A program made the position numbers and the translations under genes. The notes below the pieces were generated by a model. That model was not told where the DNA came from. It did not search any database and saw nothing but the letters and a program-made list of their open reading frames with translations. A stretch of DNA of 64,000 bases from Cladochytrium replicatum (Eukaryota; Chytridiomycota; Chytridiomycetes; Cladochytriales; Cladochytriaceae): assembly GCA_025526935.1 (NCBI GenBank), contig JAHLKD010000016.1:584135-648134 (forward strand), read 5' to 3'. This document shows, in pieces, positions 17,274 through 64,000 of this stretch (positions are counted from its first letter, which is position 1; each line of letters begins with the position of its first letter).

Positions 17274-19974
<2,701 letters not shown>

Positions 19975-61096: not shown

Positions 61097-61580
61097 CCTA
61101 ACAGTTATTCCAAGCCGGAATGTTAATAACATTCGGACGGACCGTCCGACGCGAATTTATTAAATGCGGACGGACCGTCCACCTCGAATTTATCAGCCAC
61201 GGACGGACCGTCCAACGCGTTTTTATTAGCCACGGACGGACCGTCCAACGCGTTTTTATTAGGCGCGGATGGACCGCCCAACCCATTTTATTAACCATGG
61301 ACGGACCTTCCAGATGCAATTTATTCTGCTTCAACTGTAATTCATGCTATCTCAATCTCTCTTGTAGGTGGATTTTTCACTAAGTCTTTTCATTTCATGG
61401 GTTAGGCGATGATGCTGTTGGGAGAGACTCCTTTGATTTCGTGGGCTAGAGCATCCTACTGGTGTAGAGAACTGATTCTTTGTATTTGTTTGTCCAAAAT
61501 CTCCACCAACCATACACCTTGATAACAAGCTTCTCTGCCACCCCGGGGGTTATCAGGGCAAGACCTGGCCACAGGGTCTT
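61097..61580. repeat. Subtelomeric repeat, copy 1 (truncated, 484 bp)
   Basis: Begins CCTAACAGTTATTCCAAGCC, like the other copies, and joins directly to copy 2 at 61581. It holds six 13-bp palindromes (see the array entry), then the shared segment from AGATGCAATTTATT through GTAGAGAACTGATTCTTTG to AACAAGCTTCTC. It ends early at CCACAGGGTCTT, so it lacks the last ~560 bp of the full unit. More diverged from copies 2 and 3 than they are from each other. Confidence 0.9.
61135..61311. repeat. 33-bp-period palindrome array (copy 1; same in copies 2 and 3)
   Basis: A 13-bp inverted repeat GGACGG-A-CCGTCC recurs at 61135, 61168, 61201, 61234, 61267 (two changes) and 61299 (one change). The period is 33 bp (last step 32). 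Equivalent sets start at 61619, 61652, 61685, 61718, 61751 and at 62659, 62692, 62725, 62758, 62791, all 33 bp apart. Spacers are AT-rich (GAATTTATTA, TTTTTATTAG). The period is about three helical turns, so all sites face one side of the DNA. As 33 is a multiple of 3, both strands stay open and encode an 11-residue repeat, which I regard as a by-product. Confidence 0.93.
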
Positions 61581-62620
61581 CCTAACAGTTATTCCAAGCC
61601 GGAATGTTAATAACATTCGGACGGACCGTCCGACGCGAATTTATTAAATGCGGACGGACCGTCCACCTCGAATTTATTAGCCACGGACGGACCGTCCAAC
61701 GCGTTTTTATTAGGCGCGGACGGACCGTCCAACCCATTTTTATTAACCATGGACGGACCTTCCAGATGCAATTTATTCGGCTTCAACTGTAATTCATGCT
61801 ACCTCAATCTCTCTTGTAGCTGGTTTTTCACTAAGTCTTTTCATTTCATGGGCCGAGCGATGATGCTGTTGGGCGAGAGTCCTTTGATTTCGTGGGCAAG
61901 AGCATGCTACTGGAGTAGAGAACTGATTCTTTGTATTTGATTGTCCAAAATCTCCACCAACCTTACACCGCAATAACAAGCTTCTCAGCCACAACGGGAG
62001 ATATCCTTGTCAGGAAACCAGAGGCAAGGCCAGACCACAGGGTCTTCCTGCTATAGATAGTGGATCCCACCTCCCTCTCCGTGTCCATACCACAGCTTCT
62101 CGAGGGTATTTCCAAACAGCGAAGTCCAGAAAGTGGCATCCATGATCTGAGAAAGTTTCGGACAGCAGAGTAACATCTTCTTGAAGCTGAAAAAGACCAC
62201 GGCAAATTCGAGCAAGCTCTGTAAACTTTTCCGTATTTTGTAGATATAGGAAGAGAAGGGACTTCATCGCGTATGCTGCATGACAATGGGTGGATGTGGC
62301 ACGAAGTAGGCAATCTTTTTCAAGTAAAGGCACAGAATTTCCCTCCTGTACGATAGGGTCAGCTAAAAGACGGACAGATTCAGACTGAACCGCGAACCAA
62401 TTCCGACTCAGACAACTCAGAACGGCGCAATGTCCGCGGAATATGGATAGGGTCTGACATCGATTGCATCTGCGCAGTGTAGAAGTTAATTTGGTTCGGG
62501 TGAATGTAGAGGAAACACAGCAGTTTCAATGTGGAGTAGCTGTTCTTCTGTCCTGCTCTTGCACGCGGGAAAGTGGTTCCAACTGGGTACTATGAGTCAC
62601 GCGACTTCGTGAGGTCCGTA
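61581..62620. repeat. Subtelomeric repeat, copy 2 (full, 1040 bp)
   Basis: Full unit, head-to-tail with copies 1 and 3. It begins CCTAACAGTTATTCC and ends GTGAGGTCCGTA. It holds five palindromes. On the minus strand a long frame (62333-62010) encodes a helical protein fragment, with LLRATSTHCHAAYAMKSLLF and ETFSDHGCHFLDFAVWKY. Confidence 0.92.
62010..62400 (-). pseudogene. Helical-protein gene fragment inside the tandem repeat
   Basis: Within copy 2 the minus strand reads continuously DPIVQEGNSVPLLEKDCLLR, STHCHAAYAMKSLLFLYLQN, TEKFTELARICRGLFQLQED and HGCHFLDFAVWKYPREAVV down to a TGA at about 62010. Leucine spacing suggests an armadillo/HEAT-like solenoid. Copy 3 has the same segment in two frames (63557-63309 and 63305-63048). 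The next piece (VVAEKLVIAV, LDNQIQRISSLLQ) follows in another frame. It looks like a gene fragment carried along by the repeat rather than an active gene. Confidence 0.35.
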
Positions 62621-63662
62621 CCTAACAGTTATTCCAAGCCGGAATGTTAATAACATTCGGACGGACCGTCCGACGCGAATTTATTAAATGCGGACGGACC
62701 GTCCACCTCGAATTTATTAGCCACGGACGGACCATCCAACCCGTTTTTATTTGGCGCGGACAGACCGTCCAACCCATTTTTATTAACCATGGACGGACCT
62801 TCCAGATGCAATTTATTCGGCTTCAACTGTAATTCATGCTACCTCAATCTCTCTTGTAGCTGGTTTTTCACTAAGTCTTTTCATTTCATGGGCCCAGCGA
62901 TGCTGTAGGGGCGAGACTCCTCTGATTTCGTGGGCTGGAGCATGCTGCTGGAGTAGAGAACTGATTCTTTGTATTTGATTGTCCAAAATCTCCACCAACC
63001 TTTCACCGCAATAACAAGCTTCTCAGCCACAACAGGAGATATCCTTGTCAGGAAACCAGAGGCAAGGCCAGACCACAGGGTCTTCCTGCTATAGATAGGG
63101 GATCCCACCTCCCGCTCCCTGTCCATACCACAGCTTCTCGAGGGTATTTCCAAACAGCGAAGTCCAGAAAGTGGCATCCATGATCTGAGAAAGTTTCGGA
63201 CAGCAGAGTAACATCTTCTTGAAGCTGAAAAAGACGACGGCAAATTCGAGCAAGCTCTGTAAACTTTTCCGTATTTTGTAGATATAAAAAGAGAAGGGAC
63301 TTCATCGCTTATGCTGCATGACAATGGGTGGATGTGGCACGAAGTAGGCAATCTTTTTCAAGTAAAGGCACGGAATTTCCCTCCTGTACGATAGGGTCAG
63401 TTAAAAGACGGACAGATTCAGACTGAACCGCGAACCAATTCCGACTCAGACAACTCAGAACGGCGCAATGTCCGCGGAATATGGATAGGGTCTGACATCG
63501 ATTGCATCTGCACAGTGTAGAAGTTGATTTGGGTTCGGGTGAATGTAGAGGAAACACGGCAGTTTCAATGTGGAGTAGCTGTTCTTCTGTCCTTGCTCTT
63601 GCACCCGTATGTGTTCCAACCCGTCACTGAGCCATGTGGCTTGGCTTTTTTCGAGGTCCGTA
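62621..63662. repeat. Subtelomeric repeat, copy 3 (full, about 1042 bp)
   Basis: Second full unit, more than about 90 percent identical to copy 2 by eye, starting with the same CCTAACAG and ending CGAGGTCCGTA. Several palindromes carry point changes (for example ACCATCC). The minus-strand frame is broken here by a stop in the segment before KSLLFLYLQ but extends further upstream (FRGHCAVLSCLSRNWFAV). Confidence 0.92.
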
Positions 63663-63880
63663 CCTCGCAAACTTTGGAGTTGGTTTCCGGCTCAACGGTA
63701 CCCGTCCGCCTCTGGCACTCCTTACAACGCTAATAGAGGATGTGCACCGCTATTGGTGTGCCAAGTTTGGCAAGCTGAAACAGATGCACAACGATTCCAC
63801 TTTGAGGGTCACGTGCATTTGCGAGGTCGGTACCTCGACAACCGCCACACGACTGATCGCAAACAATTACTTATCGCACT
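63634..63880 (+). other. Repeat-telomere junction
   Basis: About 218 bp of unique sequence between the last subtelomeric unit and the telomere. A frame (FGVGFRLNGTRPPLALLTTL and onward) is open from 63634 through the telomere repeats, so if it was a gene it has been cut by telomere addition. Two near-palindromes of the form CGAGGT-NNN-TACCTCG lie at 63652-63667 and 63822-63837. Confidence 0.4.
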
Positions 63881-64000
63881 TAGGGTTAGTTAGGGTTAGT
63901 TAGGGTTAGTTAGGGTTAGTTAGGGTTAGTTAGGGTTAGTTAGGGTTAGTTAGGGTTAGTTAGGGTTAGTTAGGGTTAGTTAGGGTTAGTTAGGGTTAGT
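63881..64000 (+). repeat. Telomere: 12 perfect copies of a 10-nt repeat
   Basis: From 63881 to the window end the sequence is (TAGGGTTAGT)12, which is the same as repeating TTAGGGTTAG. The G-rich strand runs 5' to 3' toward the right edge, as expected at a right chromosome end. All units are identical. The unit is a canonical TTAGGG plus TTAG, and not the hexamer usual in fungi and animals. The array may continue beyond the window. Confidence 0.93.

Follow-up and report, generated by a model that had tools for sequence, protein, structure and literature searches.

Non-canonical telomere repeats are already known. Among fungi, the Yarrowia clade is described as having the consensus TTNNNNAGGG and Yarrowia lipolytica the repeat TTAGTCAGGG, and the Yarrowia TER was found through a search with 1.5 repeats (PMC6746865). 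The Aspergillus oryzae group is reported to carry TTAGGGTCAACA, the repeat through which its TER was identified (PMC3603654, PMC10100673). In insects, Heteroptera have a 10-bp (TTAGGGATGG)n, confirmed by FISH in bed bugs (PMC11354137), and in Chrysobalanaceae a putative (TTTATTAGGG)n is listed with TER templates in its support, according to TeloBase (PMC10767889). For the chytrid Batrachochytrium dendrobatidis, TTAGGG was reported at scaffold ends in a study that screened the ends for TTAGGG (PMC11797018).

We analysed a stretch of 64,000 nucleotides, here called the window (C16:584135-648134), from the assembly (50.5 Mb, 198 contigs) of Cladochytrium replicatum (Chytridiomycota, Cladochytriales). 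It closes with a tandem array of a 10-nt unit:

63860..63880, + strand: junction between non-telomeric DNA and the array, which starts at unit position 1, the first T of TTAGGG (from the sequence)
63880..64000, + strand: terminal telomere array, (TTAGGGTTAG)x12 + T, its G-rich strand running 5' to 3' to the contig end (from the sequence and TRF)

Read directly from the sequence, positions 63880-64000 hold 12 perfect TTAGGGTTAG units and a further T, and TRF reported the same interval with period 10, 12.1 copies and 100% matches. The initial annotation had the twelve perfect units right but placed the start one base late (63881 instead of 63880). Its G-strand polarity also held, as the 12 units run outward to the last base of the contig. 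It had named an internal position as a reason to abandon a telomeric reading; checked in the assembly, the array sits at the very end, because the window's last base is the last base of C16, 648134.

Written from another start the unit reads TTAGTTAGGG, and by sequence, not by descent, it belongs to the period-10 class described as TTNNNNAGGG, with AGTT as the spacer and GGGTTAG kept. In the sources cited here, the closest known repeat is that of Y. lipolytica, one base from the chytrid unit; considering that Yarrowia species are ascomycete yeasts and not chytrids, the likeness is presumably convergent. This comparison was made through the clade consensus and Y. lipolytica, and single species of the clade may have the identical repeat. 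As in the reports on Heteroptera, the unit consists of TTAGGG and four more bases, which are TTAG here and ATGG there. The A. oryzae group likewise has a longer TTAGGG-based unit, but one of 12 nt with another insert, in Pezizomycotina, and the putative unit of Chrysobalanaceae also has 10 nt, but it is a plant repeat of other sequence. B. dendrobatidis, of the same phylum, shares the TTAGGG core in the published account, whereas here the period is 10 and the 22-mer (TTAGGG)3TTAG is lacking. Among the open-access papers listed by our literature search, none reported TTAGTTAGGG or GGGTTAGTTA as a telomere repeat, none dealt with C. replicatum and telomeres and none described a chytrid telomerase RNA; the main text of TelFinder does not contain the word chytrid. 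The unit is thus a modest variation on a known theme, for which we found no report.

The same unit occurs at many other contig ends. A two-unit 20-mer of TTAGGGTTAG gave 392 matches on the + strand and 375 on the - strand of the 50.5 Mb assembly, a frequency not due to chance, as the pattern read backwards gave 0 and 0. We read 66 contig ends chosen by their telomere-pattern matches, out of 396 ends of 198 contigs, most of which lie outside this sample. These 66 account for 712 of the 767 two-unit matches, so that the remainder would, by count, fall in about five more ends and an interstitial site on C1. All 66 carry the 10-nt unit, which is unsurprising given how they were selected; in each, the C-strand stands at a contig start or the G-strand at a contig end, the orientation of a telomerase-made telomere. 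One contig, C23 (530,898 bp), has the unit at both ends. The first 59 ends hold 723 perfect units, 9-16 per end, in arrays of 94-178 bp; telomeres of filamentous fungi are said to be very short (PMC3603654). If the 66 ends are distinct, they would be enough for 33 chromosomes or more.

The period is strict. Across the 66 ends, the distance from one GGG to the next was 10 nt in 774 of 811 steps, 6 in 14, 11 in 9, 9 in 5 and some other distance in the remaining 9 (including 14 nt in 2), so the period of 6 that defines a canonical telomere is not what these ends show. As the ends had been selected by pattern, the unbiased test was a search of the whole genome for the hexamer 16-mer TTAGGGTTAGGGTTAG. 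It occurs 16 times in 50.5 Mb (reversed control 3); 14 of these are single slips inside telomere arrays, and the other two (C57 and C114) lie outside the arrays of the 66 ends read. The search revealed no hexamer array, and because no two TTAGGGTTAGGGTTAG sites are 6 nt apart, the 22-mer (TTAGGG)3TTAG is absent from the genome. The proposed comparison of contig ends for the 10-nt unit and the hexamer thus came out in favour of the former, within the pattern-selected ends and genome-wide. The accompanying remark that a plain TTAGGGTTAGGG pair is absent applies to the window's own array but fails for the genome, given the TTAGGGTTAGGGTTAG slips.

Uninterrupted repeats continue until the last few bases in 38 of 59 arrays. 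Within the first 59 ends the commonest interruption was GGTTAG (12 cases), which equals one hexamer step, with a one-base T insertion in 3 cases and a lone TTAG step in 2. T insertions (spacing 11, 9 steps in the 66 ends) are commoner than the TTAG step.

In the 59 ends and in the 7 more, the arrays directly adjoin many different non-telomeric sequences, as they would if telomerase had added them. They begin at unit positions 1, 2, 3 and 4 in 15, 13, 14 and 8 of the 66 ends (50/66 together), at positions 5, 6 and 7 in 2, 0 and 1 (3/66), and at positions 8-10 in 13/66, a distribution that departs from uniform (chi-square p = 2.4e-6). A preference for positions 1-4 is expected if copying begins near the 3' side of the template, and starts at positions 8-10 can arise from chance matching bases.

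The DNA next to the window's array is itself repetitive:

61097..63208, unstranded: subtelomeric tandem duplication with a spacing of about 1040 nt
61134..62821, unstranded: 33/66-nt minisatellite in three blocks (61134-61325, 61618-61777 and 62658-62821)

Within the duplication, a 285-nt block recurs at 61581 and 62621 (98%) and a 300-nt block at 61871 and 62909 (97%). The minisatellite has an inverted-repeat core, GGACGG-A-CCGTCC, and related 33-nt blocks were seen beside another telomere (locus L024) and at interstitial sites. Elsewhere, the starts of C23 (L019) and C30 (L023) have related sequence that gives way to the telomere at differing points, which suggests healing of broken ends.

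For the enzyme, two stretches in C47:318415-318729 scored above the cut-off for Telomerase_RBD (PF12009), each with one TGA. One of them was found again as a fragment, and another fragment stayed below the RBD cut-off. Against RVT_1 the TERT fragments gave two matches, both below cut-off, and one fragment matched neither Pfam nor the PDB. When searched against the PDB, the frame downstream of the C47 RBD stretches did find TERT chains (best E 0.0014). We consider these stretches, internal TGA included, to be putative TERT-like exons, which points to TERT at the level of exons, and introns are the likely reason for the interrupted frames.

Taken as a whole, the window very probably ends in a true chytrid chromosome end, made on a telomerase RNA template that specifies the 10-nt TTAGGGTTAG and not TTAGGG. 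We infer the sequence of this template, and its origin through repetition of CUAA, since no telomerase RNA was found. The simplest candidate would be the widespread CUAACCCUAA extended 3' by a further CUAA, giving CUAACCCUAACUAA, or a neighbouring register of the same cycle; this would be the least change from the widespread template that yields the repeat. An end in ...TTAG would pair with the 3'-side CUAA, after which ten bases (TTAGGGTTAG) would be copied, and a single TTAGGG or TTAG step could follow when the end is aligned to the other CUAA or is released too soon. The one-base T insertions would need slippage in addition, which the CUAACCCUAACUAA scheme alone does not predict. Such a template fits what has been published: in described TERs the template spans over one repeat and up to two, and its two ends carry the same short sequence, 3-6 nt long in Aspergilli (PMC3603654).

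The initial annotation had preferred a changed template to a telomerase that uses two registers, and the spacing of 10 in 774/811 steps makes the former much the likelier. An ordinary TTAGGG-type template like CUAACCCUAA, read in strict alternation with steps of +6 and then +4 nt, does have in its favour that copying all 10 nt of CUAACCCUAA would yield exactly this unit and that single 6-nt steps exist (14/811); an independent choice of register would, however, mix 6- and 10-nt spacing, and nowhere in the genome is there a pair of hexamer 16-mers 6 nt apart. We regard this reading as very unlikely. Less likely again is a terminal satellite that recombination, not telomerase, has spread and kept uniform: some ends do have subtelomeric sequence in common, such as the 33-nt minisatellite found here and at L024, but the arrays adjoin a wide range of sequences without a gap, their start positions are clustered, and the genome has putative TERT-like exons. 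The data are an assembly and all arrays read are short, as would suit an artefact of assembly or polishing, or contamination from another species. Against this, 66 ends with differing flanks carry one unit, the single contig C23 begins and ends with it and some flanks share subtelomeric repeats, so we judge such an origin extremely unlikely. The changed 10-nt template is therefore the reading that we carry forward.

For the search for a telomerase RNA, we made use of what seems to be the presence of two diverged gene sets in this genome, such as a hybrid, or a long-standing diploid whose copies do not exchange, would have. The window's CEF1/CDC5 frame (17274-19253) shares 92% identity across 655 residues with a Cladochytrium replicatum protein (P0001); the differences are real substitutions, and the next named species are at 48%. 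Second copies at 68-73% DNA identity were found for 3/3 loci queried (C15/C13, C25/C24 and C152/C106). It is the substituted CEF1 copy, together with these second copies, that suggests two sets.

The telomerase RNA gene that the initial annotation had proposed looking for was not recovered with three template patterns, one variant pattern and homeolog checks on three loci. The first pattern, CTAACCCTAACTAAD, had 5 genome matches (reversed control 1). Two of these, C15:665203 and C152:52351, were rejected because the motif is not conserved in the homeologs; C47:128652 is a 27-nt interstitial repeat, the match on C171 is telomere and C16:216827 is intronic as judged by eye. For DNNNNCTAACCCTAAC there were 58 matches (control 45), of which 50 were taken for inspection, the other 8 being telomere arrays. 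In a mutual comparison of 38 sites, with those in or adjoining arrays left out, alignment at the motif extended past the repeat itself for L082/L102 only, a pair that lies in a dispersed repeat. A 15-nt candidate, C25:169552, is apparently intronic, and its homeolog lacks the motif; conservation in the second gene set thus failed for 3/3 candidates (C15, C152 and C25). AACTAACCCTAAD matched 45 times (control 3), 24 times in telomere arrays and 21 elsewhere. We inspected 20 of these 21 (C157:39200 was left out) together with the telomeres of C83 and C86. Three loci (L127, L131 and L132) lie inside open frames by eye and L133 has the appearance of an intron branch point; among the inspected loci, common flanks around the motif were seen in one pair, L136/L137, which is a short repeat. 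Part of the noise of these patterns has, from what we saw by eye, an ordinary source, the intron branch site CTAAC, whose sequence is similar to that of the template.

We also observed nine interstitial stretches of telomeric sequence, all of similar length (19-22 nt, about two units):

C60, C78, C96, C103, C120 (two), C161, C166 and C168: interstitial stretches, in loci L107, L112, L114, L115, L119, L124, L125 and L146

The stretch in L124 lies inside a 348-aa open frame. These could be repair scars, and one of them could conceal the telomerase RNA.

A variant of the unit was also recovered. The pattern TTAGTCAGGGTTAG, which is the Y. lipolytica repeat TTAGTCAGGG followed by TTAG, has 8 matches genome-wide (control 0). 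Six ends (C10, C37, C54, C109, C146 and, twice, C125) hold seven of the 8 among their innermost units, and the TTAGTCAGGG units at ends always have 0-1 perfect unit internal to them. Eleven units differ by one substitution and are bordered by normal repeat to left and right; in 6 of these 11 the change is T-to-C at unit position 2, for which P is about 1.6e-5 if all 30 substitutions are equally likely, corrected for 30 types; a mutation bias would weaken this value. Descent from one end does not explain these units, as the flanks of the ends differ. It is possible, though we hold it only tentatively, that telomerase templates changed recently, or coexist, and that the genome preserves the trace. 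As the oldest units of a telomere lie innermost, this would mean that a single base of the template was exchanged (...UGA... to ...UAA...) or that the two gene sets brought two telomerase RNAs. Alternatively, this position may mutate easily, or the earliest rounds of addition may have a peculiarity of their own. If templates did change or coexist, chytrids and Yarrowia reached the same 10-nt repeat independently, as TTAGGG with four more bases and with GGGTTAG kept.

The eighth TTAGTCAGGGTTAG lies in the interstitial array on C1 (1,498,356 bp). There, at about C1:73690-73755 (in L009, C1:73000-74500), we observed about 65 nt of head-to-head telomeric sequence, in which GGGTTAGTTA is joined to CTAACCC... 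73.7 kb from the contig start and one TTAGTCAGGG unit is included. This site resembles what the fusion of two chromosome ends would leave behind.

When a telomere repeat changes, the template RNA and the proteins that bind the DNA must continue to fit each other. The favoured ten-base site of human POT1 is TTAGGGTTAG, so each chytrid unit would hold one site. Four added bases with GGGTTAG kept suggest a passable route for such a change, and a clean 10-nt repeat in a phylum with a species reported to have TTAGGG would be an independent case beside Yarrowia. For practical purposes, telomere counters set to TTAGGG are expected to overlook ends built of this unit, and the 10-nt unit offers a handle for locating the chytrid telomerase RNA.
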